Source: Amyelois transitella (taxonomy: Eukaryota > Arthropoda > Insecta > Lepidoptera > Pyralidae). From it: a stretch of DNA of 64,000 bases. The stretch's first letter is position 1. The number at the start of each line of letters is the position of its first letter. The stretch lies in NCBI RefSeq assembly GCF_032362555.1, contig NC_083533.1, positions 1,369,001 through 1,433,000 on the forward strand, given 5' to 3'. The translations under genes were made by a program, and so were the position numbers. A model generated the notes under the pieces. That model did no database searches and had not been told where the DNA came from. It saw only the letters and a list, made by a program, of their open reading frames with translations. Positions 8,115 through 64,000 of the stretch are shown here, in pieces.

Positions 8115-9415
8115 CATTCAGTCAGAAAAGTATCGGGAATGGATTATTTATTTATGGTTCCAAATTCAAATTTTTGTTTTTTTTGTTGTTGTTAGATTGG
8201 CACAACTGTTTTCCATTTTGGCGCGGAGTTTGAGTTGCATCTGTTGTTTACATTAAATACAGTGCTATTTTTAGTTATATCATATCTAGTGTGTATTGCT
8301 AATTTCATAATGGATAAAAACATCGAACAAAGAGTTTGTCTTAAATTTTGCATTGCCAATGGAATATCGTGTTCGGAGTCACTGAAAATGTTACAGAAGG
8401 CTTACGGTGAATCGACTTTATCAAAAACTCGTGCTTATGAGTGGTACAAAGCGTTCAAAAGCGGTCGAGATGTGATGGAAGATTTGCCTCGCTCTGGTAG
8501 GCCATCAACGTCTGCAACTGAAGTTAACATCGCAAAAGTGAAGGAAATAGTGACTGAAAATCCTCATTGAACTTTGAGAGAGATAGCCACCGAACTTTCT
8601 GTATCTCACGAGTCGATCCGTACCATTTTAACTAATAATTTGGGTATGAAACATGTTGCCGCTCGGCTAGTCCCAAAAGACCTGAATTTTTTTCAAAAAC
8701 TCAATCGCATGAGAGTCGCTGAGGACATGCTAGAACGAGTCAATTCCGACCCAACATTCATGAAACGCATTGTTACTGGTGACGAGACGTGGGTTTACGA
8801 GTTTGACATGCAAACTTGAATGATGAATGATGCAAACTTTGAAAAAACCACGCCAAAGTCGTTCAAAAGTCAAAGTCATGTTGACTGTTTTCTTTGACTA
8901 TCGCGGTGTTGTGCACTCGGAATTCTTGCCGGAAGGTCAAACGGTAAATAAGGAATATTATTTGAGTGTTATGCGGCGTTTAAGAGAGCAAATGCGACGA
9001 AAAAGGCCAGATTTGTGGAAAGAAAATTCTTGGATTTTGCACCATGATAATGCACCTTCGCACAAGGCCATCATTGTGAACGAATTTTTAACCAAACACT
9101 CAACAAATACCATCGAGCAACCACCATATTCACCAGATATGGCTCCAGCCGACTTTTTTCTTTTTCCTAAACTCAAATTACCACTTCGTGGCACCCGTTT
9201 TCAATCGGTAGAAGACATAAAAGAGAATTCGCGGCGAGAACTGACCTCAATTCCGGAAACAGCGTTTAAAAAATGTTTTGATGATTGGATTATTCGTTGG
9301 CGTAAGTGTATCGTTTCTAAAGGAGCATATTTTGAAGGTGATAAAATAAATTTGGATGAATAACAAACAGTTTGTGTATTATTGATCTTTTCCTGCTACT
9401 TTCTTGACAGAGTAG
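8115..9415 (+). mobile_element. mariner element (DD34D), inactive
   Basis: About 1.3 kb between TA dinucleotides (8113-8114 and 9416-9417). The ends are imperfect inverted repeats of about 30 bp: the left end begins cattcagtcagaaaagtatc; the right end, read in reverse, begins ctactctgtcaagaaagtag. Length, TA target and the single transposase gene all fit Tc1/mariner. The transposase is broken, so this copy could not move on its own. Confidence 0.93.
8310..9363 (+). pseudogene. mariner transposase (broken)
   Basis: The protein begins MDKNIEQRVCLKFC with a helix-turn-helix DNA-binding half (SKTRAYEWYKAF, then DLPRSGRPST). The catalytic domain follows: TGDETWVYEFD holds the first Asp, HHDNAPSH the second, and APADFFLFPKL the third. 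The spacing from the second to the third Asp is 34 residues, i.e. DD34D. Two lesions are visible. TGA at 8568-8570 interrupts the reading frame. At about 8815-8830 a stop (8817-8819) is followed by a frame change, so the WVYEFD part and the KKPRQSRSKVKVML part are in different frames with a few codons lost. Start and end otherwise match a normal mariner transposase of about 345 residues. Confidence 0.93.
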
Positions 9416-15390: not shown

Positions 15391-15637
15391 ACGGCCTCTG
15401 TGGCGCAGCGGTAGTACGCTTGTCTGTGACACCAGAGGTCCTGGGTTCGAATCCCGGCCAGGGCATGATGAGAAATTAACTTTTTCTGATTGGCCTGGGT
15501 CTTGGATGTTTATCTATATAAGTATTTATTATAAAAATATAGTATCGTTGAGTTAGTATCTCGTTACACAAGTCTCGAACTTACTTCGAGGCTAACTCAA
15601 TCTGTGTAATTTGTCCCGTATATATTTATATTTATAC
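15391..15637 (+). repeat. SINE-T, full length
   Basis: tRNA-like head with A box (tggcgcagcggtagt) and B box (ggttcgaatcccggcc), then a conserved ~170-bp body ending tttgtcccgtatata. Confidence 0.93.
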
Positions 15638-44624: not shown

Positions 44625-47600
44625 TAGGGCTTGAATATCGGATCATTTTTCAATTCCGGAATTGAGTTCTGATATTAAGCAATCCAGTTCCGGAATTCCG
44701 GAATTCCGGAATTTGAAGCTTCCTTCTAAAATGGCATACAACTATATTATAATGAAACTAAGGGCTATTGTTATAAGTAGAAATAAAAAACCATTAAAAG
44801 AGCTATTTACTTTAATAAAATTACTAATTAAATAAAAATTACCCACAGCTCAGATAGACTTCTGTTGGTAATGAAATTTTAAAAAAGTTAGTGCATCTAA
44901 ACTGTTGTCTTTCAACGAACTTCTCACACGGCTACAAACGTTTGAAACTGCTGAAAACGCGCGTTCAGCCTCCACACTGGTAGGTGGAATTGTTTTTAAA
45001 TATTCGAAACATTTAGTCAGATATTGACCTCTTCCGCCGCCGTTTTCAAATACCGCCATTTCAACTCTTAGCAAACTTTCCAGATCAATATTTGTTGTTT
45101 TCTTTTTACTTTTCATAGTAACTCTTCGTCTCTGAATAGTTTCTTGTAATTTTTGTTTCATACTCATTCCTTGTGCTTCTTCATTCACGTTTTCTTCAGC
45201 AGACTTCTCACAGTTTTCTTCTTCCGGGCTTAGTGAATCGTCCAACCTTTTAATTATTTTCACAATTTCTTCTAACATTTCGTTGCTTGTCGGTTTAGAA
45301 AATGTCTCACGGTCAAAGTTGTCTTCGTGATAATCTTCTGAATCGTAAAGATACACCAAAACAGATGCTATAGGGAGACGTCTTTCCTTAATGCGGTTCC
45401 TAAGGCTTTGTGCCAGATTTTTGCTAATGTTACCGTTTTGGTTACTATCTAAAGACTTTAACATGAATTTAAGAGCTGTATCGGCCGTCATCAAATCAGC
45501 GTCTCTCTGACAAAGCGACTCTACAGTTATCTTAACGACATGAAGACTTTCGTGTAAAGCTTTAAGTACTGCTACTGCTTCTTCATTGACAGGCACTACT
45601 ATGTCTAAGTCTAGAAATCCTTTGGTGATAGCAGACCTGAGCTTTAAAAACCTTTCAATCATATCGCTTAAACTTGACCATCTAGTTTTACAATCAAGAA
45701 TGAGGTTCAGTTCTTTTCCATATTCTGCTACTACGTATTTTTGTATGGCTTCATTTTTTAAGCTTGATTTTCGTACTGACCTGACCAGCTTTCTAATCTT
45801 TTCAATAACATTTTCAAAGTTTAATTGTCTTTTTTCCATTTCTTGCTGTACAGAGGCCCCTTCAATCTCAAAACCTCCAATTTCTTCGTCATCTTCATCG
45901 TCATTATCTTCTAATATCTGATCTTCATTTTCTACATATTCAGAAGCAGATATATCAACAATATCAGTTATATCCATGGCCACAAAATCCTCCTGTCTCG
46001 TTTCAGTATCACCTCTTTCATTATATTCACTGTTTTCTTTTTTATATAAGACATCAATCACTCCTAACTGTAAGCCATGAGCCAGACAAATTTGATGGTA
46101 GCCCTTGTAATATCGCCCCATTTTAACCATAACTGCAGCCCCATCAGATGTTAAGCAAACAACGTCTTTGTCCAAATCAACAGCAAATTCTTTAAGATGT
46201 TGTTTCAAGTAATGGTATGCTGTTATTGCAGGCATACTGCCTACAATTCTCACAAGGCCGAGATTTTTGAAGTTATCCTTAAATTTATCGGAGTGTAAAT
46301 TAACATTCATGTAACGTCTATTGCGGATTGATGTATACTCATCAAGCGATACAGAATATCGTCTTGTTTTATCTTGTGAAATTTGCTGTCGGAGTTGTTT
46401 TTTTAAGAATTTGTGCTGATTAAGTACAATGTCTCTTATAGCGCTACCAGACGCCGGCAAATTATATCCACATTTGTGGAAAAGATCTCGAAGGTCTTCA
46501 GATGTGCAAAATTTACTGAAAGGAATGCCATCAAGAGCGGCCATCCTTGACACTTTTACAGCCAGCTCTAGAGATGTGTCAAAAAAGGCAGTGATCATTT
46601 TAAGCTTTTTTGCTGCTCTGGGCATGCTGTTGCTGGTGCTAGGAGTAACGGAAGTACTACATTGAGTTTCTGATTGAGACAGCAAAAGGTTTTTTTTCTC
46701 TTTCAGATCAATAGCGTGGGTAGATTTCAAATGTACATGCAAACCTGTTGTCGCACCACCGTGGCATTTTAAAATTTTAAAGCATAATTTGCATTTACCG
46801 GATTGCCCATCTTCCGCCCTAAGAAAATGGTTCCAAACTGATGTGTCCGCTTTCCTTTTATTAAATTCCAAATATTGTGCGGGTTTTGATAGTGACCTGA
46901 AAGTAAATAAATTTCTGACTAATACATACTTATAAGATTTCGTATCGATAGAGAAAGAAAAGCTTTGTTATAAACAAATTGTGCCATTCTTTACATATCA
47001 TGCGACTATATTCTGTAAAATTATACGCCGATTTAGAATATTAGTAGTATAAAAACCACCCTATTCGAATTCTCAAATGAAAACTCAATGGCGACTAAAT
47101 AATATAACTTATGCCCGCTCTACGCGTTCGTCCGGCATCGCCATGAATCGATATACATTGCCTACTTTGTATGTAGTAAAAACACGGCTCATTTTAAAAC
47201 GTAAGTAATGTAAGTACGTTAATTCGGCAAAAAGTTCGCCGAATGTGTTGAACGCGGATTAGGTCTACGTGCCGCGCGAGCGACTGAACAGCAGCGCGCG
47301 TGGCTCGAGGTACCTACGGCTCGGTTGCTTAGCAACGCTGTCATGTTCGCGCGTGCTGCGAAGGCGGCATGCCTAGCAACACGATAATATTTAGGTGCGG
47401 GTGCGGGCGTACGTTATATACGTGCAATACAATAATCAAACTGAGATCTATTAATGACCAGAAAATAAACCTGATAATTGTGTTATTTTTTGCATGACTA
47501 TTCTGATATACGTTTCAAAACCCAATTTTTTTTGTTATTTAGTAGTAATTCGCAACAAACTAAGCAATGGCCAATGGCCATACATTGAGTAGTACGGAAT

Positions 47601-48836: not shown

Positions 48837-48905
48837 ATGATAAGAAATGGTTTATTTTTTGTCTTTTTATTAACTTTTGGGGTTGTTTATCCCTTACCTA
48901 TGCCA
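48837..48905 (+). CDS. Microexon gene, exon 1 (signal peptide)
   Basis: ATG ATA AGA AAT GGT ... starts MIRNG, then hydrophobic LFFVFLLTFGVV, then YPLPMP; 23 codons, ending CCA|GTAAGT. A classic cleavable signal peptide. Confidence 0.88.
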
Positions 48906-51900
48906 GTAAGTATGTGTATGATGTTAACTGTCTCTTTTATGTAAAAACATACATTGTATGTATGTTATTACATAAAAGAGACAGTCATCACGCCTGTTTC
49001 TCATTGAGGTAGGCCGAGACTATGTAAAAACTCTCTCTCATTCTCAACTGTTATGATTTAATTCTTGTGACTATGTAAATTTCTGTGGAATAAAGAAACA
49101 AACAAACAAACTGTGTAAAAATATTTCGCCAATTATTCAATAACTTTCTATGAATATTTGCAAAGTAGAGAGAAGTTTCTAGTATTTTTAGCTTATTTTT
49201 AAAGTTCCATATATATTTTATGAAACAAACTTTATGACAAGATTAGGTCTAATTAAACAAAACAATGTTGTGTGATCTTTTCACACTGCGAAATCCAATG
49301 AAAAGTTTGGAAATAAAAACGCAACTTTGGCCGTATGAAAATGTTGCCACGCAGGCGACTCTTATCAGAAAACAGCGCACAGAATGTAAGTGTACTTACT
49401 TCAAATTATCAAGACTTGGTCAAAGTGGTGAAATAGATTTCTTTCGACAGATTTGGATTTTTTCACGATATCTACGAACATATGAGGATTTTTCCACGCT
49501 CTCGACCGATAAAATTCGATGTTTTCACGTTCACGACGAATAGATTTGGATTCTTTAAAACTGTCAATGAATAGATTTGGATTTCACTCTCTAGACGAAA
49601 AAAAATTGAACTTTTTCTTGTTTCAACTGTATCTAACATCATAACTTACATCTAAAATTTTAAAATGTCAGAGCTAAATCGTCGTCTTTAACAACGGTTT
49701 ATAACATTTGATAATCTTTTTTTAGCAAGACGAGGAAGAGGTGAGTCAAATTACTTGCTTAATAGTCCTTTAAACAAGATGAAATTTACTATAAAGTATA
49801 TATATGAGCGAAAACAAGTTGGGAGCACCTGCACTCGACGCGCGAGCTTCATCATTATTCTTAGGACACGAACTAAATATAACGGACAGTCGGCAATAAT
49901 TAAATCATTTACCTAAATTATATTTTTCTAGGCTCCTCCAGCAGCGGTAAGATAACAAGATTATTAGATTGGCATAAGTCCGCCATTATATCCTACTAAT
50001 ATTATAAATGCGAAAGTTCGTATGTCTGGATGTCAGTATTGATGTTTGTTACTCTTTCACGCAAAAACTACTGAACCGATTACGATGAAATTTGGTGTGT
50101 AGGTAGCTGAAGACCCAGAATAACATATAGGCTACTTTTTATACCGGAGTTCCCGCGGGATTGATAGGGTTTCCATGCGGACGAACTCGCGGGCAGCCTC
50201 TAGTAATATGTACATCTTCTAAATCTAATGACTGTTTTATATTTTGTTATATGTTTTCTTCTTTTTATGTGCAATAAAGAGTTGACAAACAAACAAATAA
50301 GATCAAATTTTTAATCACGGGGATGAATGAAAGCGGGTTAAGTAGTTAGATGAAGTAAATGTACTTATATGTAGGGTGTGAACGAGAACATAGGAGTAGG
50401 AATGCGCAGAAGCACGTCCCTTGGGCAAATCGGGGACGTCCTGGCCAAAGGTCAGGTCAAAAGTCCCTGAAACCGACGAAAAAAAAACATTAAAAATGTT
50501 TCATTATATTTTTTTGAAAACGAATGTTCCTCCTAAGCAACATTGCCTAATAATGTCAATGCTCAATAAATTTCTTTATAAAATTATTATTTTAATAGAT
50601 ATTGTTGATCTACTAGAATAACGCATATTTATTTTTGTTTTACAATTAGGAAGGTGAAGCGGTCTGTATTATAATCATGTTTAATTTATTAATTTATTTC
50701 ATTCTCTCAGATTGATATTCTAAATCTATAAAGAAGGTAGATGAAAAAAACTTATTTTTAAAAGAATATTTTCATGTTCCTAGATTTCATGTCACTTAAA
50801 CACTTTGGGGTAGACAGAGCTAACAGTCTCAAAATGACTGAAACGCCACGTTCAGCTGTATGGCTTAGTGATAGAATTGAGATTCTAATAGTGACAGGTT
50901 GCTAGCCCATCGCCTTAAGCAAGAAGTCAAAGTTTATAAAGATTTTCCATTACTTTAACATTCAGCGCGGAAAGAAACTTATATATAAAAATATTTTCTC
51001 CAAATAGCTTTTAGATTTTTAATAAAATATATTGATATAAGTAAGTTTTAAACTTATTTTCCGAGATACTAACACAACGATACTATATTTTATAATAATT
51101 ACTTATATACAAACATCCAAGACCCAGACAAGTCAGAGAAAGTTCGTTTCTCATCATGCCCTGACCGGGATTCGAACCCGGGACCTCCGGTTCCAGGAGT
51201 TACCAGACAGCTTACTGTAGATTTAAATGTAACATACATACATATAATCACATCTATATCCCTTGCGGGGTAGACAGAGCCAACAGTCTTGTAAAGACTG
51301 ATAGGCCACGTTCAGCTATTTGGCTTTAAGAATTGAAATTCAAATAGTGACAGGTTGCTAGCCCATCGCTTAAAAAAGAATCTCAAGTATGTAAGCCTAT
51401 CCCTTAGTCGCCTTTTACGACATCCATGGGAAAGAGTGGAGTGAGTGTTCCCGGCACCAATACAAAAGAGAATGGAGTGGTCCCATTCTTTTTTGTATTG
51501 GTGCCGGGAACCACACGGCACCATTTAAGTGTAACTTATGTTTTTAGGAAGGAGACGCTGCTGTATGTATAAATAAAATTATGTTTTTAGAGTAGATATG
51601 AATAAGATTTTGAATTTCTAGTTCGTATTTCTAAATCGGCCTCTGTGGTCTAGCGGTAGTGTGCTTGTCTGTGACACCGGAGGACCCGGGTTCGAAACCC
51701 GGCCAGGGAGCCATCTCATCATGAGAAACGAACTTCCTCCGATTGTTCTGGGTTTTAGATGTTTATCTGTATAAATATTTATTATTTAGCATCGTCAAGT
51801 TAAAATAACAAATAAATACCTAGTAATGGGATCAGATGATGTCAAGGATTTAATTGTATTTAAAATACATTTATATTACAAAAAAAATAGATAATAATAA

Positions 51901-54900
51901 AAAAATGCTCATTTAAATCCTAAATGTTCTTTTAATATTATATTTCAAGCCCGCTCCTGATGTAAGTCTAATTTTTTTTATTATTATTTTATTATATATA
52001 CATTCATACACACATAAAATCAAGCCTCCTTCCCGGAGGGGTATTAGGCAAAGACTTCATTTTTCCACTTGCCACTTTCACTTAAATTTAAAATCATTTT
52101 TAAGTGAATCAAACGTGATTTTAAAAGTATTTATTATAAAATATAGTTTCAGAAGTCTCCAACTAAATACTTCGAGGCTAACTCTGTCATAATTATTTAG
52201 GTTCATTGGAAGAAATCCTAATTGGGATACATATGTCCGCCATTGTTCATATTCTTCTAAATCCAACGGCTGTATTATATTTTTTTTATATGAATTTATT
52301 TTCTTGTGAAACAAACAATATGTAATAATCACCTATTTTAATTTAATATACTTACTTATATTATTCATATTTAGGCAGAAGGTGCAGCAGTAAGTATGAC
52401 TTCTGGTCAATTTTTTTGCTTAAGAAAATTTTCACTTCAATTTCATTTTCATTAAAAAATTACAGCAAAAAGTAAAAATAATTTCTTTTCTGTCCGATAC
52501 AAATTATTCAATTTACAGTGTAGCGGGAGCAATGATTCGACTCTACGCTAAAACTTATAAATATTATTAAATTAAATTAAATTTATTTACACATTACGCT
52601 CTCTCCAATCATTTCTACGCCACAAAAGTAATTTTTGTTTTTCACATTTGCTTATATACATTTTTAAGCTTTATCAAACAATCACACATATTATCAATCA
52701 TCATACATCAAACAATCATGTATATTTATTCAGTTTGACCCCACATAAAGTTCTCTGTCAGACCCAATGGTTGACTGGTAGATAATGCTTCCAGCATTAA
52801 GTCCGCCAATTGTGCTATAAATTTGTATTTGGTGCAATAAAGTTTAAATAAATAAATAAAAAATATTTAACATACCTTTTTTTTTAAATATTTAGCCGCC
52901 AAAAGGTGAGGCGAAAGTAAGTTCCACTCCTATTATTTATACAATTCATATTTATTACAAGTGTTGGGATTGGTCAGTGACATAATAACAAAAAGTAAAA
53001 AAATGTATAAAAATTATTTAACATTCCCATATCAAATTTTTTTTATCACCTAATCTGTCTTAGTATGGGAAAGTAAATCTTATCTTATCTAAGTTATATA
53101 TGTTTTTGAGTATGTTAAAAAAATCACACTAATAAACATAATATTAGTTTAAAATATTTTTAGCCGGAAGGTGAAGCAGTAAGTATTTACTATTCCTGAT
53201 TAATTTCAACGTCTATATCCCTTGCGGAGTAGACAAAATCGACAGTCTTGAAAAGACTGATAGGCCATATAGCTGTTTGGCTCAATGATTAAATTGAATT
53301 TAAAAATAGTGAGAAAAATTGGAGAAGTATCCAAATTGGTTTAAGAAAAAAATAATTAAATCAACATATTAACTACAAATATGAAAAATAATTTTACCAA
53401 AAAAAAAAAAAAAAAATTGGGTTAATTATAAATTGCCTGATGAATTGAACTTAAAACAATTATTTTTTGAATCTTGATGCGTTGAGTTCTAATTTTTATA
53501 AAGGTAGAGAATTGGCATACAGCTATTTATGTGTTATTTTTTATAGTAAGTCGGTACAGTATTTGCTAGAAACGCGCGAAGTAAATCTTTCAATCACCTA
53601 GAGTAAAAGATATATAAATCCGTAATACATCATTAAATCTTCATTTGCGTATAATTATGTTTCTTCCATTCCCTATCGGAATCCGAAAAGGCCAAAAAAA
53701 GCTCATGATTGATAGAAAACGATAAATCGAAGTATAAGATTTAAAGAACTGAAAAATAATTTTAAAAAATTATAAATATATATTTTTAATTTAATTTAAG
53801 AAGATCTTAAGACGGTCGTCCGTTTCGGTCTTGACCCGGCCTTTCACTAGAACGTATTTCATAAGGTATTAACGTAAGGTCATCCCGTTTCATTATTTTC
53901 TTAATTTCAATTTTTACGTTATTTTTTACATGAAAATGTTTATTTTAGAAACCAGCAGACGCAGTTGAGGTAAGAATAAAAAATAATATTATTCTTCCTA
54001 AATAGTAATAAGTTTTTTTTTAATTTCTATTAGAGAGCTAATTATGACTTTAAATTCAAAAATTGATGTTTAAGGCTTTTTTTCTGTTAGTCATAACATT
54101 TTTTTTTATTATGCTTCAAAGGTAAAAGACGATGAAGGAAAAAAGGTAAACACTTAGGTACCTTACTTACCTTATAGATATAATAATTTAGTGTTGCATC
54201 ATTGATTAACTCTGAAACTTTTCAATCAATTTAAATTTAAAAAAAAAAGAAGAATATGTTTATATTTTATAAAGGTAAAAAGTTACTAAGTATTTATTAA
54301 GAACCCATTTTTATTCATTTAACATTTTTTCCTTGTAGATTGAAGACGCAGAAACTGCAACGCAAGTAAGATTTTACTTTAAATTTCCTATTTTGGACTT
54401 AATTGTATTTGATGTATATTTAACTTAACGGTTCCTACTTGTTATGTTTCAGGAAAATGTAATTATACTAATATTATGTAAAATAACGGGATATTGACAG
54501 ACTGATTGACATAATGCATAGCCCAAATCCTAGAGTCCAAAGATTTGATTTTGCAAAGGTTTATAATAGTATTATTACGGAAATTGTTTATAATCTAAAT
54601 TCTAGTCAAAGATTAATTTTTTTTTTCAATTGAATTAATTTTTGTCTTTTTGAATTATTTTTTAGTTAACAGTTTTAATATTAGTTATAATTTTTTATTA
54701 CAAATTCTGGCAAATTGTATATAAATTAGTATCAGTATATATAATAATATTTTAAAATACACATTGAAAACAGTTTAAAGTACTTACTTGTATTAACTGA
54801 ATTATGATGAAATTTGAAATGTTATAAATATACTTTTTACTTTAACAGGGTGTCAAAGTGAATGTAAGTCAATAATCTTATATTTATATCTCCAATTCGA

Positions 54901-57900
54901 TTGTCAGAAACGTATATGACTTACAAAATTGAGGTCAATTTAGTTATCACAAACATTATTTAATGAAATGTAAGTTTGTTTTACACATGGCAGTAGTTTA
55001 CTTTTAATTTAATTAAAAATATTACTTTAATTATTAATTAAAACTACAATATTTTGATGCACTTACAGATTACGGTATGTAATAATTTTAATGCGTTCCG
55101 TTTTAATTAAACAATAATTTTTAGAAAAATCTAGTCATCAACGTCCTAAATTAATTATATTTTTGCTCATTCTCTCCATTACGCTGATTAGCTATCCGCT
55201 TTGCAATATATTTTAAAATTTATATTATATTATTTCATCTTTTTATTTAAAATCAAGTTAAAATCAAATGATGTTATTTCATTTTCTAATTTCTAAAACA
55301 ATATCTTACAGCTTAATGTGAGTTTGAAACATTTCCTTTATTTTTATTTAGTTTTAAAAATAGCTATGAAATAGCCGGTTTTTGCCAGTGAATAAATTGA
55401 AAATTGTGCCGTGTGGTTCCCGGCACCATTACAAAAGAATAGGACCACTCCATCTCTTTCCCACGGATGTCGTAAGAGCCGACTAAGGGATAGACTTGGG
55501 ATTCCTCTTTAATGTAAATCCCTGCCAATCTAAGGTCTGCCGCGCCGATGGATGCATGGCTAGGGGCGAGCCTAGTCTCGAGCGTGCCACTTCCGCCATG
55601 GGGTTGGGCGACCCCCAGGTAATGGCTAGCCTTACCCTGGCATGCGGGGCTCTGCTGGGGCGGACAAAATTTTTCCCTAGCGTCTCGTGGGAATCGCATT
55701 ATGAACCTTAAAAAGCATATAAATGGCGGCGATGGTGTCCGCACCCCATCACGTCTCGTTCCCGGCGGGAGCGGTATGCGGTCTGCTGAAAGCCGCTTTG
55801 CGACGATGAATGTAAGAGGAGGAATGAAGGATAAGATTGAGGAAGTATGCCAGATGATGGATGAAAGACGTTTGGATGTGTTGTGCGTGAATGAAACGAA
55901 GCGGAAAGGATGCGACGCGACGCAGCACGGCCCTTACACGGCGTATTGGTCTGGAATTTCCAGTACCAGCCGAGGCTGTCAAGGGGTCGGTCTAATTCTT
56001 TCTGCACGAATGGCTGAGTGCGTGAATGAGTATGAGTGTGTCAGCCCTCGTCTTCTATGGATTAGGCTGAAAGTTGGAATCACTCGGATCTTCGTTCTAG
56101 GTGTTTATGCACCTTGGGATGTGGGTTCGAGGGGTACAACATCAGCAAAAAGCGAAAACGAGGAGTTCTGGAATAGTGTAAGAGAAGTATTGAAAGTTAC
56201 CAAGCCAAATGAGAAGATTATTATGTTAGGTGATTTTAATGGATGGGTGGGTGTAAAGCGTGATGGATATGAAAAGGTGCTTGGTGCGTTTGGTGAGGAA
56301 AAGGTGAATGATAATGGAAGAAGTGTATTAGAAATTTGTCTAGAGTGGGATCTTTTTGTGTCGAACTCAATGTTTCAACATAAAGAGATCCACACCTACA
56401 CAAGAGTGGAAGGTATTTTAAAAAGTATGATAGACTTTGTGATTGTAGATGAAAGATTGAAGAACAAAGTGCTGGATACCCGTGCATATCGCGGTGCTGG
56501 CATTGACTCGGACCATTTACTGGTGATATCCCGGATAAGGGGTATCTTCAATCGCTGGCGGCACAGGGTAAGGGAGCAAACCAGCGCTTTGGAAAGAGTA
56601 AAAGTAGAAAATTTGCAAGATATGGATGTAGGTAAGAAGTATATTAATAGACTGAAGGATGAATTTGAAGATTTAGAGGAAATGAGCGATATTGAAGATG
56701 GATGGAAGGAATTTAAAGAAAGAATTGTGAAAGTAGCTGTTGAAGTGTGTGGTGTAAGTAGAAGAAGGAAAGGAAAAAATCACAAAAATGCGTGGATGAG
56801 TAAAGATGTGCAAGAACTTGTGCGATTAAAGAAGAAAGCATGGCTGGATTTGTTAGCAGCAAAAGCTAACTTAAGAATGCAAGAGGTTATAGATGAAGAT
56901 GTGAATGAAGCACGTAAGGAATATAAGAAAATGAAAGATTTGGTTAAGAAAGCTGTGATTAGAAAGAAAGAAGAGTATAAAGAGGATTTTGATAAAAGGC
57001 TATCAGAAGACTTTCAGTCAAATCTGAAAGTATTCTGGAAATCCGTAAGGTCAGCCCGAGGAAATACTATAACCAGAGAGCTGACTAGGATCAGATGCCA
57101 GGATGGTAGCGTTGTGAAAGGAGAAGAATGTGTACTAAAGATATGGAAGGACTATTTTGAAAGTTTATTTGAAAAAAAGGAAGGAAATAAGAAAGATTAC
57201 TGCTATAGCGAAGAAAAAGAGAATGAGATGGAAGGCGAAATTGAAATGTTCGAAATTGTGGAAGCACTTAAGAGTATGAAAGCGGGAAAGGCTGCTGGGT
57301 GTGATAGAGTGTCGGTCGAGATGCTTAAAGCAGGAAAAGGCGTAGTAGCTAGTCAGTTGTACTGCCTTTTCAATTTGTGTTGGAGAAGCGGCCGAGTACC
57401 AAAAGATTGGTGTAAGGCTGTTATCGTGCCACTTTACAAAGGAAAAGGGTCACAGCTGGACTGCAAAAATTATCGTGGTATAAGCCTGCTTAGCGTTGTC
57501 GGCAAATTGTATGCTAAGGTATTGATTAATAGAGTCAGGAATGAAACTGATGACAAAATATGGGATGCTCAAGCGGGATTTCGAAAGGGAATGGGATGTA
57601 CTGATCAGGTCTTTTCCTTGCGGTGCATAGCCGAAAAGTTTTTGGCCAAGAGTCAAAAAGTCTATTGCACATTCGTAGATCTGGAAAAGGCCTATGACAG
57701 AGTTGAGAGGAATGAATTGTGGTCAGCACTTTCTATGCATGGGGTGAGCAGTCTCTTAATACGAGCACTGAAATCCTTATATGAGGATTCGAGTGCTTGT
57801 GTCAGGATAAACGGAGCGCACACTGAGTGGTTTAAGATTGAGAAAGGCGTTAGGCAAGGATGTGTTGCGTCACCGTGGCTGTTCAACCTATTTATGGATA

Positions 57901-60900
57901 GCTGTTTGACAGATTTGAAAGAGTCTAAAAGTGGATTAAGGATGAATGAGTTACTCGTCAAATGTCTGCTCTATGCCGACGATCAGGTTATACTGGCGTC
58001 ATCAGCGGAGGAGTTACAGGAGATGGTAAACTGTATGCATGAAGCTTTAAAAGAGAAAGGAATGAAAGTGAACGTAAGTAAAACTAAAACACTGGTTTTT
58101 GAAATGGAGAAAGAAATGACAGCATGTAATATTTTGATTGCAGGAGAAAAAGTGGAGCAAGTGAAAGAGTTTGTATATCTAGGATCAAAGTTTACATCAG
58201 ATGGCAAGTATGATAGTGATATTGAAAGGAGAGTGAACGCGGGGAACATGGTGAATGGAGCTTTGCATGCCTTTATGAGCAGTCAGAAACTATCCAAAAA
58301 GGCTCGACTGGCTGTGCACAGGGGCGTGTTGGTCCCGACATTAATGTATGGGAGTGAAAGTTGGGTATGGCAAAAGAAGCATGAAAGCAGAATAAATGCA
58401 GTGGAAATGAGAGCGTTAAGGAGTATGATGGGTGTGAAATTGAGTGACAGGATAAGGAACAGCGTGATAAGGGAATGTTGTGATGTGAAAGAAGATGTAG
58501 TTACAGGAATAGAAAAGGGTATGTTAAGATGGTTCGGTCATGTGGAGAGGATGAATGAAAGCAGGTTGACTAAGCAGATATACAAGGAGAGTGTGGAGGG
58601 AAAGGTCGGAGTGGGAAGACCTAGACGAACGTATCTTGATCAAATTAAGGACGTCCTGGTAAAGGGTCAGGTCAAAAGTACCCGAAACCGCCGAGCTTGT
58701 ATGAAGAGAGTTATGAATGTGGACGAAGCGAAAGAAGTATGCAGAGATCGTGGCAAGTGGAAAGAGGTAGTCTCTGCCTACCCCTCCGGGAAGGAGGCGT
58801 GATTTTATGTATGTATGTATATGTAAATTGAAAACTACAACTTTATTTTAGGAATTTTACTTTATTTTAATTAGGTATGTAGCGAGCGCGTAAGTAGTGA
58901 AGCAGTAACCTCGGTACCCTTACACTGGCGCCCCACGTTGGGCGCCAATGTAAGGGATCCAAGGTACCGCTCAGCCGGGCTCGGTTGCCTAGCAACGCGG
59001 CCGTGGTTACTGTCAAACTACTCACGCGCTCGCTACAGGTAGATTTATTATTAATATAGTTTAGAAGTTGTCATTTTCGCATTTCGTCAACTTAATTCAA
59101 TAACTTTAAAGAAATATAAAATAAAGTGTTATCAACTTTCAATGAAATATTTACATATATTTTTTTTTCCTATAGCCGGAAGATGTACGTAAGCCTCTTC
59201 AAAATTTATATTCTCTTAAAAAAATCACATTCAATAAAGATTGGAATAATATTTGAAATGTAATAAAAAAAAATTATGTAAAATTTAGACATAAGTGTCT
59301 AAATTTTAAAAAAAATTTTTTATTAATTCATATTTTTCCAAGTTGGTTTCGTATTTTTAATTTCAAACTTTTTACCAGAAATATTGGGTTTGTTTTCGTT
59401 GAAGATTATGTTATATCAAAAAATAATAAAAATATTGTTTCAGGTTAATATGGTAAAAACATATTATAGTTTTACATACATACATAAATCACGCCTCTAT
59501 CAAGAAAGGGTAGGAAGAGACTACTTCTTTCGCTTCACATTCATGCAAATTCGTCGGCTACGGGTACTCTAAACCTGACCTTTTGCCTGAACAACTCCGA
59601 TTTGATCAATTTTAGTTATTAAGACATTTTTATTTTTAATTTATTCAAAGAACGAAACGTACTATGAATATATATTATTATTTACAATATTCCAGCCAGC
59701 GGTAAGATTAAATTTCCCTTACTTTTAATTAATTTACTTACGTTGATATTTATTAAGATCACTTTAAAATAATTAAATATTTTATAATTTACCTTTTTAG
59801 AATCTAGTAAGTAGTCATCAGAAAATAAATTATTTAGCTTATGTGCATTAAAAAGAAATGCTTATTTACTTGTCCGGATTTAATTTACATTTATGTTTTT
59901 TTTAGGTAACGGTAAGTTTTACTGTCATAGCAGTTATTTTATAATGATAAAAAAGATCCTAAAAACATATTATAACATTATTCTTCTTATTATCAGGACC
60001 GATATGTGAGTAAAATAATAATTTTATTTTAAACAATTACAATTTTATACTGGTAATAAAAATTACTATATTAATATATTCGTATTGTAAAGATATATTC
60101 TAACATATTTGTGTCATTTCTTTTTCACGTTACATTGCCTTCATCGACATGAAAACAATCAGTAAGTAAATTCAATTACAAATAATCTTTTTCTTTTATA
60201 TTTCTTGGTATTGCAAGTGATCTTTTGGGGCAAGGGGTCCATATTTCGGCAGTTGCTTTTTAAGTCAAAATGAGTTAATCAGAAATGTTACCACTTAACT
60301 TGTCTGCCTATATAATGGTAAGATATCACATGTTTTGATTACACAAATTTAAATATAAAAAAGAGAAGGAATTTATTAGAATTTCCTTTTTAAACTGATG
60401 TAATTTAGATCGACAGGATCTGGTCAAATATAAGTAGTAAACTTAGAATTTTTGTAATTTGCCTTCAGTCGATTTTTCTTAGAAAAAATGTCTTTTATAT
60501 ACATTGTACAGTATATCAAAATGTTTATTAGCTTTAAGATCCATAAAATTCTATTAAAAAGCATACATACATAAAATCACGTTTATATCTCTTTAAGGGC
60601 AGACAGAGCCAACAGTATTGAAAAGACTGAAGGGCCACGTTCAACTGCATGGCCTATTGATAGAATTGAATTTCTAATAGTTTCAGGTTGCTAGATCATC
60701 GCTTACAAGAAGAATTATTAACCATGTATTATATAAAAAAATTATAACTTTTCAATTGTTTACACAGCACAGGGCGTAAGTACAAAATGTAGATTATTTA
60801 AAATCTCATAAAGTCATAAAGTCATATTTAATAAAACAGTAATTTTTGTACATCATCATCTCACTTAAAAGCTTGTGCACAAAATGGCTTCACATCTTTG

Positions 60901-63900
60901 ATTAGCCAACAGAAAGAGTTATCATAAAATTTATAAAATTTTGACCCGTTTCGATTGCCATAGCATTGTAAAGTCGACTTAAGTTAAATAAAATAGAGAT
61001 AAATAAGTTTTAACTACTAATTTATTGTTATTACAGCTACCTGTAAGTATATAATAATAATTATTATTTTCTTTATTTTTTTTATATTTATTTACTAAAT
61101 TAATTTATTGTCTTTTTTGCTTACAGCTTAAAGTAAGTTTTTTAAATCAGTGACAATTGATACACAGTTAAAATATATATCTTAATGTCAGACACGACAT
61201 TTCTAAAATTAGTAAAAATAATTTAATGTATATTTTCTTTCATTAGAAAGTGGTAAGTGAAACAATAAATAATTAAATTTATTTAAAAACATTCATGGTA
61301 AAAACTTAACTAACTTATGCATTAATTCTTTTCATTACATACTTAATTTATCTTATTTTAATAACGTTTTGTTGATGATATTTCAGGAAATGGTAAGTCC
61401 CAAATTATATTTCTAAAATACCAATTCATCAAAGTTTTGTATGTTTTTTTTTTCAAAAAACAGTCAATGACCTACTAGCGCCACCGTAATGTGTAACATA
61501 ATGTTAATATGTTTTAAATTGATAAAAATATACTTAAATATTATAGTGAAATTGTTTCTTACAGCACAATGTAAGTTACATTAAAAAAATAATATTATGA
61601 AAGTATTTTTATTTCGTTCATTATTTATTACTTATTTGTATTTGTATTTTTTTAAAGGTCACGGTAATGAATTTGCATTAATTTTTAACTTTTTATTTTT
61701 AAAATATAACAAAAATAAATTTAATTTGATAAATTATTACTCTAGCTACCGGTGAGTATGAATTGTAATTCATTAAAATTAAACTTTTAACATTCATTAA
61801 CAAAAGTTTAAGATTTTTTTTATTTTTTTTAGTGAAGTCCATATTGATATCATGACAGTAATTTTCGATGAAAAGTTAAACTTAATGAAAAAAAGTTTAT
61901 CAGTAATAACTTTTTCTTTATTAAAACATTATTTTATTATTACTTTTCAGGATGGGAGTGTAAGTTTTTAGAAATTAAAATATTTCATAGTTGCCTTTGT
62001 ATTGGAATTAAATCAGTATTTTATTATCGCTTATATACGAGTTTACTAACACTAATAAATTATTTTATAGGTAATTGTGAGTATATTCATATATTTATTG
62101 TCAATTAATTGATTTAATTGTTACTTTTTTTTAAATTCTGTACTGAAAATATTATTTTTCTTTTTTCCTTTCATATAGGAATTAGTAGTAAGTATTTATT
62201 ATATTAAAATTATTGTAACTGTGATGTGTTATCAAATGATTTTTATTAAGTTTCCACACACTTTGACAACAAATTATTTAATTAATTATTTTGCATTACA
62301 GTCAGAGGTAAGATTAATTGAAATACCTACTTAAAATTGATTTGAATTAAGTGAATAAATGATTGATGACAGTAATTTTTATGAAATGTTTTTTAAATAT
62401 TTTTTTGTTTCTATTTAAGGTTTGGGTAAGTACTTCTGCAAAATAATCAAACAGTAACTAGTTACATATAATGCATTGCTACCATGCTTATTCAGTATGA
62501 TGTAATGACGCATAGGTACTCTTTTGAAGAGCAATATTAGTATTAAATCATCTTCTTTCTTCTGGAACTAATCCCGATTACTGATCGGATCCTGGATTGG
62601 ATAATTCAGGTTTTTACACTAAGTTACTCCCATCTGACCTTTGCAACTTTTGCTGGGGAACAAAATTCAAAATTTTTTATTCATTATTATAGGATACTAT
62701 TATATCGCTTAATAATTGTCGTATGGTTTAACAACTTGGTTGACGTCAAATAAATTACTTAAAAACTAAGTTTACTGCCGCTTCCAAGGCGTCAGTGCAG
62801 AAGAAGCGGTAACGAACCTTACTCATAGTGGGTTATGGTAAAGGCTGCGCTCCTTCGCTGTCGCCTTTTACGACATCCATGGAAATTCTCTATTAAACGA
62901 CCAGGTGATTTGGCTTTGACATTATCAAAATAAATGTAGATAGGTATATTATGATAAGTTATGTTAATGTAAATTTATATAGTGATTTCTATATATGTAA
63001 TTAAAGATCTAAGTAAATTACGTTTACCCATGCCCCGGAGACATTATCTTATTTAAGCAAGACTGATACAAAAACTAGGTATATGTATGAATTTAATTTA
63101 AAAAAATGTTACCGATATATGTATTTCTTTTAATTATCGATCATATGTTTCAGAGGACTGTAAGTTTACTCATTAATTTTTATAATCTACTAATAATAAA
63201 TAATTTACCATCTCACATCACAATTTAAGGTAAAATTATTTTCAATTATAATTTAAGTTTTTCTTATAAAAAGTCTTATTATTTCAGTATTACGTAAGTG
63301 GAAATATGGTTTTCTTGTTTATTTATTGTTTAAATACATATGGTCACGTCTATATCCCTTGCAGGGTAGATAGAGCCAAGAGTCTTGAAAAGACTGAATG
63401 GCCACATTCAGCTATTTGACTTAATGATTGAGATTCAAATAGTGACAGGTTGCTAGCCCATCGCCTAAAAAAAAAATCCCAAGTTTGTAAGCCTATCCCT
63501 TAGACGCCTTTTACGACATCCATGGGAAAGAGATGGAGTGGTCCTATTTCTTTTTGTATTGGTGCCGGGAACCACACGGTACATTTTTTGTTTAAATGTA
63601 TTATTTGTACATAACTTAACGTTTTACTATTTCCAAACAGACTGTCGTAAGTATATCTTTACACATGTATTTATCACGAGATTATAACTAAAAAAAAATA
63701 AACACAAAATATGTTAAACTCTTTAAAGAATTTTATTTTTTCCCGAGCTTAAAATTGAAAAGAGAATCTGTGCGATTAAAAATATTTTGTTGACTAATGA
63801 TTTTCTTTATGTTCTTAACAGCCGCCTACGGTAAGATCCTTTTTTAAAAATCCAGAAAGACGTACCCCTATCGCACCACCAACCATGACTAACTTGGGGC

Positions 63901-64000
63901 TGACAATACATTTTAGCTCTCAAATATTTTTTTATTTTCAAAATCAAAATTTTAATGTAAATAAGGTATTTTAGGTGATCTCGAGAATCATTTACTAGTT
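48837..64000 (+). CDS. Microexon gene for a predicted secreted protein (runs off the window)
   Basis: A signal-peptide exon is followed by about 38 tiny exons, each with an AG acceptor and a GT donor (mostly GTAAGT or GTGAGT). Every exon is a multiple of 3 nt and read in phase 0, so any subset can be skipped without a frameshift. Lengths: 69 nt (signal peptide); then mainly 12-27 nt; then, from 54453 on, almost all 6 or 9 nt (19 of 6 nt, 6 of 9 nt). No stop appears in phase. The first part is rich in Glu, Ala, Pro and Lys; the second has mixed dipeptides and tripeptides. Introns are mostly 80-700 nt. The architecture matches the microexon (MEG) genes of schistosomes, which make variable secreted proteins. 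No domain or family is recognisable from such short pieces. The gene continues past 64000, so the protein end is unknown. Confidence 0.85.
48927..48985. repeat. 28-bp near-perfect hairpin in intron 1
   Basis: 48927-48954 (actgtctcttttatgtaa...) pairs with 48958-48985 with one mismatch and a 3-nt loop, 21 nt after the donor of exon 1. Confidence 0.95.
48988..49025 (-). repeat. RTE-A tail scrap
   Basis: atcacgcctgtttctcattg through ggccgagactatgt, next to the hairpin. Confidence 0.6.
49440..49600. repeat. Loose local repeats
   Basis: gatttggatt recurs at about 49454, 49540 and 49573, with tttcacg/ttccacg between; unexplained, inside intron 1. Confidence 0.4.
49726..49740 (+). CDS. Microexon, 15 nt
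   Basis: ctttttttag|CAAGACGAGGAAGAG|GTGAGT; Gln-Asp-Glu-Glu-Glu. Confidence 0.85.
49932..49946 (+). CDS. Microexon, 15 nt
   Basis: tatttttctag|GCTCCTCCAGCAGCG|GTAAGA; Ala-Pro-Pro-Ala-Ala. Confidence 0.85.
49992..50205 (+). repeat. rep-D copy
   Basis: cctactaatattataaatgcg to gcgggcagcctctagtaa; in a microexon-gene intron. Confidence 0.85.
50320..50476 (+). repeat. RTE-A 3' fragment, diverged
   Basis: gaatgaaagcgggttaag then ggacgtcctggccaaagg; lacks the tail. Confidence 0.75.
50651..50662 (+). CDS. Microexon candidate, 12 nt, weak donor
   Basis: ttttacaattag|GAAGGTGAAGCG|GTCTGT. Glu-Gly-Glu-Ala matches the motif of the exon at 53164, but the donor GTCTGT is poor; possibly decayed. Confidence 0.45.
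50803..50937 (-). repeat. nA fragment
   Basis: Reverse; tggggtagacagagctaac to aagtcaaagtttataaag. Confidence 0.85.
51060..51190 (-). repeat. SINE-T, truncated
   Basis: Reverse body and B box (gggattcgaacccgggacc); the A-box half is missing. Confidence 0.88.
51232..51521 (-). repeat. nA element ending in a hairpin
   Basis: Reverse nA. At its head end the sequence 51448-51475 (forward head) folds onto 51483-51510 (reverse head), 28 bp with one mismatch and a 7-nt loop. Confidence 0.92.
51547..51561 (+). CDS. Microexon, 15 nt
   Basis: gtttttag|GAAGGAGACGCTGCT|GTATGT; Glu-Gly-Asp-Ala-Ala. Confidence 0.75.
51637..51800 (+). repeat. SINE-T copy
   Basis: A-box region tggtctagcggtagtgtg and B box ggttcgaaacccggcc; body truncated near atcgtcaagtt. 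Confidence 0.9.
51950..51961 (+). CDS. Microexon, 12 nt
   Basis: tatatttcaag|CCCGCTCCTGAT|GTAAGT; Pro-Ala-Pro-Asp. Confidence 0.8.
52005..52078 (-). repeat. RTE-A tail fragment
   Basis: Reverse; cacataaaatcaagcctcc to tttccacttgccac. Confidence 0.85.
52375..52389 (+). CDS. Microexon, 15 nt
   Basis: ttcatatttag|GCAGAAGGTGCAGCA|GTAAGT; Ala-Glu-Gly-Ala-Ala. Confidence 0.86.
52735..52860 (+). repeat. rep-G copy
   Basis: gttctctgtcagacccaatgg to gtttaaataaataaataaa. Confidence 0.85.
52896..52916 (+). CDS. Microexon, 21 nt
   Basis: aaatatttag acceptor; codes Pro-Pro-Lys-Gly-Glu-Ala-Lys; donor GTAAGT. Confidence 0.86.
53164..53178 (+). CDS. Microexon, 15 nt
   Basis: atatttttag|CCGGAAGGTGAAGCA|GTAAGT; Pro-Glu-Gly-Glu-Ala. 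Confidence 0.87.
53208..53317 (-). repeat. nA tail fragment
   Basis: Reverse; caacgtctatatcccttgcg to aaaaatagtgag, 30 bp after the preceding donor. Confidence 0.85.
53949..53969 (+). CDS. Microexon, 21 nt
   Basis: gtttattttag acceptor; Lys-Pro-Ala-Asp-Ala-Val-Glu; donor GTAAGA. Confidence 0.86.
54122..54145 (+). CDS. Microexon, 24 nt
   Basis: atgcttcaaag acceptor; Val-Lys-Asp-Asp-Glu-Gly-Lys-Lys; donor GTAAAC. Confidence 0.75.
54339..54365 (+). CDS. Microexon, 27 nt
   Basis: ttccttgtag acceptor; Ile-Glu-Asp-Ala-Glu-Thr-Ala-Thr-Gln; donor GTAAGA. Confidence 0.85.
54453..54458 (+). CDS. Microexon, 6 nt
   Basis: tatgtttcag|GAAAAT|GTAATT; Glu-Asn. Confidence 0.68.
54849..54863 (+). CDS. Microexon, 15 nt
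   Basis: actttaacag|GGTGTCAAAGTGAAT|GTAAGT; Gly-Val-Lys-Val-Asn. Confidence 0.85.
55069..55074 (+). CDS. Microexon, 6 nt
   Basis: gcacttacag|ATTACG|GTATGT; Ile-Thr. Confidence 0.75.
55312..55317 (+). CDS. Microexon, 6 nt
   Basis: atatcttacag|CTTAAT|GTGAGT; Leu-Asn. Confidence 0.8.
55404..58823 (+). mobile_element. RTE-A, full-length RTE-like LINE
   Basis: 3.42 kb bounded by an 11-bp duplication TAAATTGAAAA (55393-55403 and 58824-58834), so both ends are known. The head (gccgtgtggttcccggcac at 55408) is shared with nA. A ~290-bp leader precedes one 1033-codon ORF; the stop is almost at the end, followed by TATG units as tail. One ORF with endonuclease and RT but no gag-like ORF1, and a microsatellite tail, point to the RTE clade or a close relative. 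It may still be active. Confidence 0.96.
55701..58802 (+). CDS. RTE-like endonuclease/reverse transcriptase
   Basis: 1033 aa, no stops or frameshifts. The AP endonuclease domain comes first: TMNVRG near 35, CVNETK (Glu65, metal binding), GDFNG at 177-181, and SDH at 270-272. A Lys/Arg-rich coiled linker (about 290-480) leads to the reverse transcriptase: NYRGISLLSVVGKLYAKVL, CTFVDLEKAYDRV with the first Asp, GVRQGCVASPWLFNLFMD, and YADDQV at 758-763 with the catalytic Asp pair. The C-terminal region has LRWFGHVERMNESRLTK and GKVGVGRPRRTY, a pattern common in RTE/CR1-type ORFs. The ORF is complete, so the element could mobilise itself and probably nA in trans. The start may be Met1 or Met36. 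Confidence 0.96.
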   Translation: MNLKKHINGGDGVRTPSRLVPGGSGMRSAESRFATMNVRGGMKDKIEEVCQMMDERRLDVLCVNETKRKGCDATQHGPYTAYWSGISSTSRGCQGVGLILSARMAECVNEYECVSPRLLWIRLKVGITRIFVLGVYAPWDVGSRGTTSAKSENEEFWNSVREVLKVTKPNEKIIMLGDFNGWVGVKRDGYEKVLGAFGEEKVNDNGRSVLEICLEWDLFVSNSMFQHKEIHTYTRVEGILKSMIDFVIVDERLKNKVLDTRAYRGAGIDSDHLLVISRIRGIFNRWRHRVREQTSALERVKVENLQDMDVGKKYINRLKDEFEDLEEMSDIEDGWKEFKERIVKVAVEVCGVSRRRKGKNHKNAWMSKDVQELVRLKKKAWLDLLAAKANLRMQEVIDEDVNEARKEYKKMKDLVKKAVIRKKEEYKEDFDKRLSEDFQSNLKVFWKSVRSARGNTITRELTRIRCQDGSVVKGEECVLKIWKDYFESLFEKKEGNKKDYCYSEEKENEMEGEIEMFEIVEALKSMKAGKAAGCDRVSVEMLKAGKGVVASQLYCLFNLCWRSGRVPKDWCKAVIVPLYKGKGSQLDCKNYRGISLLSVVGKLYAKVLINRVRNETDDKIWDAQAGFRKGMGCTDQVFSLRCIAEKFLAKSQKVYCTFVDLEKAYDRVERNELWSALSMHGVSSLLIRALKSLYEDSSACVRINGAHTEWFKIEKGVRQGCVASPWLFNLFMDSCLTDLKESKSGLRMNELLVKCLLYADDQVILASSAEELQEMVNCMHEALKEKGMKVNVSKTKTLVFEMEKEMTACNILIAGEKVEQVKEFVYLGSKFTSDGKYDSDIERRVNAGNMVNGALHAFMSSQKLSKKARLAVHRGVLVPTLMYGSESWVWQKKHESRINAVEMRALRSMMGVKLSDRIRNSVIRECCDVKEDVVTGIEKGMLRWFGHVERMNESRLTKQIYKESVEGKVGVGRPRRTYLDQIKDVLVKGQVKSTRNRRACMKRVMNVDEAKEVCRDRGKWKEVVSAYPSGKEA
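58877..59034. mobile_element. 158-bp element with 21-bp inverted ends
   Basis: Starts tgtagcgagcgcgtaagtag and ends as its reverse complement (one mismatch), between GGTA and GGTA. GC-rich against an AT-rich intron. Internal palindromes include tggcgccccacgttgggcgcc and gttgcctagcaac. TG...CA ends plus a 4-bp duplication fit a tiny solo LTR; long inverted ends fit a MITE. Confidence 0.7.
59176..59184 (+). CDS. Microexon, 9 nt
   Basis: tttcctatag|CCGGAAGAT|GTACGT; Pro-Glu-Asp. First exon after the LINE. Confidence 0.75.
59444..59452 (+). CDS. Microexon, 9 nt, weak donor
   Basis: attgtttcag|GTTAATATG|GTAAAA; Val-Asn-Met. Confidence 0.55.
59478..59590 (-). repeat. RTE-A 3' fragment
   Basis: Reverse; acatacatacataaatcacg to ctaaacctgacc; shortened inside. 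Confidence 0.82.
59696..59701 (+). CDS. Microexon, 6 nt
   Basis: aatattccag|CCAGCG|GTAAGA; Pro-Ala. Confidence 0.8.
59801..59806 (+). CDS. Microexon, 6 nt
   Basis: acctttttag|AATCTA|GTAAGT; Asn-Leu. Confidence 0.8.
59906..59911 (+). CDS. Microexon, 6 nt
   Basis: ttttttttag|GTAACG|GTAAGT; Val-Thr. Confidence 0.8.
59997..60005 (+). CDS. Microexon, 9 nt
   Basis: cttattatcag|GACCGATAT|GTGAGT; Asp-Arg-Tyr. Confidence 0.8.
60565..60718 (-). repeat. nA fragment
   Basis: Reverse; catacatacataaaatcacg to cgcttacaagaagaatt. Confidence 0.85.
60773..60775 (+). CDS. Possible 3-nt exon
   Basis: tttacacagcacag|GGC|GTAAGT. Using the nearer AG leaves a single Gly codon; using the upstream AG gives 8 nt, which would break phase. 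Confidence 0.4.
61037..61042 (+). CDS. Microexon, 6 nt
   Basis: ttgttattacag|CTACCT|GTAAGT; Leu-Pro. Confidence 0.82.
61127..61132 (+). CDS. Microexon, 6 nt
   Basis: ttttgcttacag|CTTAAA|GTAAGT; Leu-Lys. The intron before it is only 84 nt. Confidence 0.82.
61247..61252 (+). CDS. Microexon, 6 nt
   Basis: tctttcattag|AAAGTG|GTAAGT; Lys-Val. Confidence 0.8.
61387..61392 (+). CDS. Microexon, 6 nt
   Basis: gatatttcag|GAAATG|GTAAGT; Glu-Met. Confidence 0.8.
61565..61570 (+). CDS. Microexon, 6 nt
   Basis: tttcttacag|CACAAT|GTAAGT; His-Asn. Confidence 0.82.
61658..61663 (+). CDS. Microexon, 6 nt
   Basis: ttttttaaag|GTCACG|GTAATG; Val-Thr; weaker sites. Confidence 0.65.
61746..61751 (+). CDS. Microexon, 6 nt
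   Basis: attactctag|CTACCG|GTGAGT; Leu-Pro. Confidence 0.8.
61951..61959 (+). CDS. Microexon, 9 nt
   Basis: ttacttttcag|GATGGGAGT|GTAAGT; Asp-Gly-Ser. Confidence 0.85.
62071..62076 (+). CDS. Microexon, 6 nt
   Basis: tattttatag|GTAATT|GTGAGT; Val-Ile. Confidence 0.8.
62179..62187 (+). CDS. Microexon, 9 nt
   Basis: ctttcatatag|GAATTAGTA|GTAAGT; Glu-Leu-Val. Confidence 0.8.
62302..62307 (+). CDS. Microexon, 6 nt
   Basis: ttgcattacag|TCAGAG|GTAAGA; Ser-Glu. Confidence 0.82.
62421..62426 (+). CDS. Microexon, 6 nt
   Basis: tttctatttaag|GTTTGG|GTAAGT; Val-Trp. Confidence 0.75.
62555..62660 (-). repeat. SINE-B fragment
   Basis: Reverse; gattactgatcggatcctgg to cctttgcaacttttgctgg. Confidence 0.7.
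62665..62822 (+). repeat. rep-E copy
   Basis: attcattattataggatac to cagtgcagaagaagcggtaa. A scrap of reverse nA head follows near 62845-62890. Confidence 0.85.
63154..63159 (+). CDS. Microexon, 6 nt
   Basis: catatgtttcag|AGGACT|GTAAGT; Arg-Thr. Confidence 0.82.
63288..63293 (+). CDS. Microexon, 6 nt
   Basis: cttattatttcag|TATTAC|GTAAGT; Tyr-Tyr. Confidence 0.82.
63334..63581 (-). repeat. nA element, full length
   Basis: Reverse; atacatatggtcacgtc to gccgggaaccacacggta, within a microexon intron. Confidence 0.94.
63641..63646 (+). CDS. Microexon, 6 nt
   Basis: tatttccaaacag|ACTGTC|GTAAGT; Thr-Val. Confidence 0.82.
63822..63830 (+). CDS. Microexon, 9 nt
   Basis: tatgttcttaacag|CCGCCTACG|GTAAGA; Pro-Pro-Thr. 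Last exon seen; an acceptor-like ggtattttag near 63965-63974 may open the next. Confidence 0.82.

Follow-up and report, generated by a model that had tools for sequence, protein, structure and literature searches.

The plus strand of this moth locus very probably carries a lineage-restricted lepidopteran gene for a small, probably secreted protein of about 192 residues, whose coding sequence would be cut into microexons by some 42 phase-0 introns. The window, a 64,000-nt stretch of Amyelois transitella DNA (C29:1369001-1433000, in a genome of 327 Mb in 33 contigs), was analysed together with the 100 kb before it and the 120 kb onward from its end. Two of its genes mark the genome as lepidopteran: one for Fibroin_P25, a silk family of Lepidoptera that went undetected in all 14 genomes used as controls, and UFC1, close to the locus, whose best match is the Papilio machaon cluster given below. 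Our gene model comprises 43 exons over 16.4 kb, from 48837 to 65239 in window numbering (C29:1417837-1434239), and overruns the window end by 1.2 kb. A first-pass annotation of the window had proposed a microexon gene for a secreted protein at this place. As a gene model, this proposal is supported by scan statistics, by a contrast with decoys and by a signal-peptide exon recognised by eye. Every junction, and the expression of the gene, are predictions from sequence.

Gene model

Exon 1 (48837..48905, 69 nt; MIRNGLFFVFLLTFGVVYPLPMP) is the signal-peptide exon and exon 43 (65123-65239, 117 nt, past the window end) the terminal one. Between them, the model places 41 internal exons of 3–27 nt, all symmetric, in phase 0 and stop-free. 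Exactly 6 nt, or two codons, is the length of 21 of the 41; the others measure 3 nt (two exons), 9 nt (six), 12 nt (two), 15 nt (six), 21 nt (two), 24 nt (one) and 27 nt (one). The coding sequence of 579 nt yields 192 residues and is interrupted by 72.5 introns per kb. If the model is true, we know of no protein gene with a denser intron load.

The 42 introns span 82–3858 nt with a median of 199 nt, and 22 of them fall between 82 and 199 nt. Donors are strong in 33 of the 42 (GTAAGT in 21, GTGAGT in 6, GTAAGA in 6). The nine weak donors are of eight kinds: GTCTGT (exon 4), GTATGT (exons 5 and 15), GTAAAC (exon 11), GTAATT (exon 13), GTACGT (exon 17), GTAAAA (exon 18), GTAATG (exon 29) and GTATGA. 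The acceptors read CAG in 22 cases, TAG in 16 and AAG in 4 (exons 6, 11, 29 and 35).

All exons lie on the plus strand. The series begins with exons 2 (49726..49740, QDEEE), 3 (49932..49946, APPAA), 4 (50650..50661, EGEA), 5 (51548..51562, EGDAA), 6 (51950..51961, PAPD), 7 (52375..52389, AEGAA), 8 (52896..52916, PPKGEAK), 9 (53164..53178, PEGEA), 10 (53949..53969, KPADAVE), 11 (54122..54145, VKDDEGKK) and 12 (54339..54365, IEDAETATQ). It continues with exons 13 (54453..54458, EN), 14 (54849..54863, GVKVN), 15 (55069..55074, IT), 16 (55312..55317, LN), 17 (59176..59184, PED), 18 (59444..59452, VNM), 19 (59696..59701, PA), 20 (59801..59806, NL), 21 (59906..59911, VT), 22 (59997..60005, DRY), the 3-nt exon 23 (60773..60775, G) and exons 24 (61037..61042, LP), 25 (61127..61132, LK), 26 (61247..61252, KV), 27 (61387..61392, EM), 28 (61565..61570, HN), 29 (61658..61663, VT) and 30 (61746..61751, LP). 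There follow exons 31 (61951..61959, DGS), 32 (62071..62076, VI), 33 (62179..62187, ELV), 34 (62302..62307, SE), 35 (62420..62425, VW), 36 (63154..63159, RT), 37 (63288..63293, YY), 38 (63641..63646, TV) and 39 (63822..63830, PPT), the last inside the window. Exons 40 (64668-64673, NT), 41 (64794-64796, I) and 42 (64883-64888, PG) lie past its end. Exon 4 is doubtful and may not be an exon, exon 3 has a 5-nt alternative that scores well in a scan with hand-set splice profiles, exon 17 has a 13-nt alternative, and exon 23 has an 8-nt alternative via the AG at 60766-60767.

The first-pass annotation had read a signal-peptide exon ending in GTAAGT, followed by about 38 units in the window, all multiples of three and stop-free in phase 0. 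We confirm exon 1 and its GTAAGT donor, the model holds 38 internal exons in the window (exons 2-39), and length and phase are as described for every one of them. The proposed size range of 6–27 nt applies to most exons, but exon 23 has only 3 nt. Donors had been called GTRAGT-like nearly throughout, which suits the 33 strong ones and not the 9 weak ones, counting exons past the window. The start at 48837 stands, whereas the gene does not end at 64000 but continues with exons 40-43.

Several further units were considered as exons and left out. Those at 62496-62501 and 62829-62837 have lengths divisible by three but are weak, the former with the donor GTAATG. A 33-nt unit at 51008 contains stops, and another of 33 nt at 51408 sits within a repeat stretch. 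The 15-nt unit at 58875-58889 (VCSER) is stop-free and has a strong donor, but overlaps the arm of an element with inverted ends (58878-59037; 37-nt arms, 84%), whose edge imitates a 15-nt microexon.

Among the introns, the first contains a near-palindromic stretch of 59 nt (48927-48985, 92%) and the fifth a tRNA-like stretch near 51640-51710, seen by eye. Two tRNA-His calls in the window (15394-15465, plus strand; 36300-36371, minus strand) may be repeat-borne, since a tRNA-like stretch also occurs in intron 5.

Coding evidence and the origin of the exon series

When the predicted exons are joined, frame 0 is open to the last codon and frames 1 and 2 contain 13 stops each. Across the 131 microexon codons there is neither a stop nor a frameshift, the probability of finding none being 1.5e-5 under the composition of the locus and 8e-4 under that of the exons; as some weak exons were chosen partly for frame fit, and the unit at 62496-62501 was excluded despite being on a par with the weak exon 29, frame and stop measures over the 41 exons are somewhat flattering to the model. 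A comparison within the same introns used YAG-N6-GT decoys, with the LINE stretch excluded. All 21 six-nt exons are stop-free versus 12 of 22 decoys, and their GC content is 42% versus 26% (resampling P 5e-5); 17 of the 21 have a strong donor. Over the 41 internal exons, GC at the first, second and third codon positions is 70, 43 and 34%, and the introns have a GC content of 27% (LINE-holding intron excluded).

How such a series arose is a separate matter, and one alternative history is possible, if distinctly the less likely one. Tiny symmetric, stop-free AG-N3n-GT units could have been born in introns and accreted neutrally, rather than an old coding sequence having received introns. Uniform phase 0 and a mode of 6 nt are not what random insertion of introns would produce, so either exon accretion or biased insertion is needed. 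Most of the similarity among introns (E 1e-4) falls in repeat stretches that also match the flanking DNA, a pattern that also suits neutral exonisation. However, the six-nt exons are richer in GC than the decoys, as if they had been coding for longer, and this GC content argues mildly against recent neutral accretion. We also considered whether the introns are all copies of a single mobile intron; they share no likeness beyond repeats, and nothing points to a recent origin of that kind.

Including splice sites, exons 7 and 9 are 87% identical over 31 nt and exons 4 and 9 are 78% similar over 41 nt. This indicates that the acidic exons would have multiplied by local duplication, each exon together with its splice sites.

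That the gene is recently dead or dying, its exons a relic that is no longer spliced correctly, is improbable. The nine weak donors speak for it, as does a LINE in intron 16 (55701-58802) whose 1033-aa open frame encodes reverse transcriptase and endonuclease. So does the stop codon: a repeat starting near 65215 overlaps the terminal exon and supplies its final residues as well as the stop codon, which is why the original C-terminus may have been lost. Against decay stand the intact run of microexon codons and the 33 strong donors.

Still less probable is a reading of the units as recursive splice points, that is, zero-length exons of one long intron, rather than coding exons. Serial neighbouring AG/GT pairs do look like ratchet points, but the locus contains a single YAG|GTRAG (56629, within the LINE), and the units have lengths of 3–27 nt, divisible by three, and are coding-like.

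Statistics against chance

A consensus-rule scan, with rules not trained on the locus and the frame not used, was applied to 284 kb in total. On the plus strand of the 16.4-kb locus it returned 34 units, of which 25 have a length divisible by three and 13 are exactly 6 nt long. The corresponding means of 300 Markov-1 simulations are 4.3, 1.4 and 0.16, with maxima of 13, 6 and 2. Outside the locus, the plus strand (267 kb) contains 46 units, split 15/15/16 by remainder 0/1/2, and the whole minus strand (284 kb) contains 52 (21/18/13), with four six-nt units in each. The excess of multiples of three, and above all that of six-nt units, is restricted to the plus strand of the locus.

A second scan, a weighted-interval search, used splice profiles set by hand, had no frame term and was tuned in stringency by a penalty. 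At penalty 15, the locus yielded 19 units, 15 of them multiples of three (none with a stop) and 8 of them six-nt units, versus 133 units, 38 multiples of three and no six-nt unit in 33 equally long control stretches, which were run at this penalty only. Here 26 of the 41 internal model exons go undetected, which means that the scan alone does not carry the full model, and 4 of its 19 units lie outside the model. At penalty 14, a stop occurs in 1 of 20 multiples of three; at penalty 12, there are 39 units at the locus, 28 being multiples of three (3 with stops) and 23 belonging to the model. The outcome thus depends on stringency. With a profile trained on the locus, 17–19 six-nt units were found at the locus itself versus zero in 168 kb of plus strand and 184 kb of minus strand, a result that is partly circular. 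Clusters seen in a loose scan at 30-36 kb (plus strand) and 130-140 kb (minus strand) vanish at higher stringency, save for a 3-nt unit at 136945.

The spacing had been called non-random on first inspection, and the six-nt counts bear this out against both simulations and control stretches. Simple AG-N-GT pairs are common (in the first 48.8 kb, the loosest scan found 110 units on one strand and 120 on the other), but that the series consists of chance pairs in AT-rich DNA is scarcely credible and already refuted by these controls, the more so as 36 of 64 locus units are multiples of three even in the loosest scan, which has no such bias elsewhere.

The predicted protein

The predicted protein is probably secreted, judging by the signal peptide read by eye in exon 1. 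The signal peptide precedes an acidic part, a mixed part, the tripeptide CGC and a basic tail. The acidic part, a Glu/Ala/Pro/Gly repeat of 65 residues, consists to 89% of D/E/A/P/G/K and has a net charge of -16. The middle part, of about 66 residues, is made of mixed hydrophobic and polar dipeptides, and the basic tail contains Cys. There are three N-glycosylation sequons.

A search of the whole model against 5.8 billion proteins, which demands shared 5-residue words, returned 1141 candidates with none at E 1 and no convincing relative; with residues 84-182, the same collection gave 8 candidates and none at E 10. Lepidoptera are included in it: the best match of UFC1, the first of the 120 best of 1248, is a cluster headed by Papilio machaon, with 95% identity. 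No Pfam family exceeded its cut-off for the predicted protein (PASTA only, 0.046, under its cut-off), and the PDB gave no convincing match, only one at E 0.072 that we do not believe. No further copy of exon 1 and no convincing paralog of the terminal exon turned up in the moth genome, the latter having one match besides itself (E 0.3, 47% identity). The missing annotated relatives fit rapid change or a young gene, and equally a gene invisible to annotation pipelines. As such pipelines likely miss genes of this kind and the search needs shared 5-residue words, absence of relatives does not prove uniqueness. Standard annotation sees such genes poorly, and more may be hidden.

Comparison with known microexon systems

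The best reading of the moth gene is that it is laid out like the micro-exon genes (MEGs) of schistosomes and the bicycle genes of aphids, is unrelated to either, and is more extreme. In the cited passages, MEGs encode small secreted proteins from exons of 3–81 bp, the majority multiples of three, separated by introns of 0.1–5 kb (PMC10526429). Their symmetric exons permit alternative splicing (PMC4350168). They have 10–20 short exons, most of 15 bp, and are there described as apparently restricted to platyhelminths (PMC10526429, PMC4350168). With MEGs so described, the moth gene model shares the N-terminal signal peptide (exon 1, by eye) and the combination of mainly tiny multiple-of-three exons (41 of 3–27 nt) with longer introns (82–3858 nt). 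It differs in being lepidopteran, in its roughly 43 exons, 21 of them of 6 nt, and in that we found no shared sequence. The MEG motif as excerpted, FL(hydrophobic)2FX6W-polar-K/H/R, is absent from the predicted protein by eye, the only W being residue 140. With this motif absent, a lepidopteran genome and no homolog in the protein searches, kinship with MEGs is unsupported.

Bicycle genes have about 17 exons on average, almost all of phase 2, and CYC motifs; in the pea aphid, the genes with the strongest over-expression in salivary glands include 55% of the putative bicycle genes, and megacycle genes have more than 100 microexons coding for about 2000 aa (PMC9168663). The insect host and the many small exons in one common phase are shared with this description. 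However, the moth exons are in phase 0 rather than 2, are far shorter and lack CYC in their predicted product, and kinship with bicycle genes is likewise unsupported.

Single animal microexons, for example in Drosophila, are up to 30 nt long and reach down to 3–7 nt in the portion cited (PMC8042270). Those lie between ordinary exons, whereas microexons make up nearly the whole coding sequence of the moth gene. Vertebrate SCPP and casein genes also build secreted acidic proteins from small phase-0 exons; their exons are several times longer and fewer, and the genes are vertebrate. A literature search of open-licence PMC articles gave, among the matches listed, no described lepidopteran gene of such a kind, and in the excerpt of PMC4007636 the mention of microexons is merely a reference.

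Proposed splicing and evolution of the gene

On balance, we favour the view that microexon genes originated independently in Lepidoptera, with the second half of a secreted protein assembled mostly two residues per step, over about 42 splicing steps, each skippable without frameshift. Since simultaneous binding of two sites separated by 6 nt is hardly feasible, we infer that the short introns with near-consensus sites would be recognised by intron definition and spliced out one after another. With every step the 5' exon would grow by about two codons and be brought up to the next GTAAGT. As all model exons are symmetric, any of them could be skipped or gained with the frame kept, which would give length variants by splicing or in evolution. 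Combinatorial splicing and rapid change, both suggested in the first-pass annotation, are possible.

If spliced as predicted, the gene tests how the spliceosome handles dozens of exons too short for recognition across the exon. If true, microexon genes for secreted proteins would have arisen outside flatworms and aphids too, and exon birth or intron gain should be traceable between close species.

Serial six-nt exons elsewhere and the neighbourhood

Genome-wide, the pattern TTNCAGN6GTAAGT, which detects only exons of exactly 6 nt with that consensus, has 262 matches versus 185 for a backward control. Among the 260 matches listed (61, 100 of 102, and 99; by eye), 6 fall within 2.3 kb at the locus, and the only other same-strand pairs less than 5 kb apart are C27:1765218/1767461, C7:10774666/10774806 and C1:1666972/1667458. 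In each of the C7 and C1 pairs, one hexamer is repeated. The C27 pair marks a different gene with larger exons (C27:1764785-1767472; L033 4785-7472), in which a linker apparently derives from consecutive exons of 12, 6 and 6 nt in phase 1, by eye; a further 6-nt candidate exon lies at L033 7467-7472. Its product matches no Pfam family over the cut-off. This is possibly a second, milder serial-microexon gene, and it suggests that other places in the genome also contain 6-nt exons in series, a few at a time. A fragment resembling the LINE of intron 16 was seen by eye near the end of L033.

Within the window, a Transposase_1 fragment lies at 8827-9363 (plus strand) and a hAT/BED transposase frame at 44853-46871 (minus strand). 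The UFC1 gene is located just downstream of the locus on the minus strand (about 67.3-72.2 kb in window numbering; L009), and its first coding exon is present twice in nearly identical form, with open frames near 70751 and 72222.
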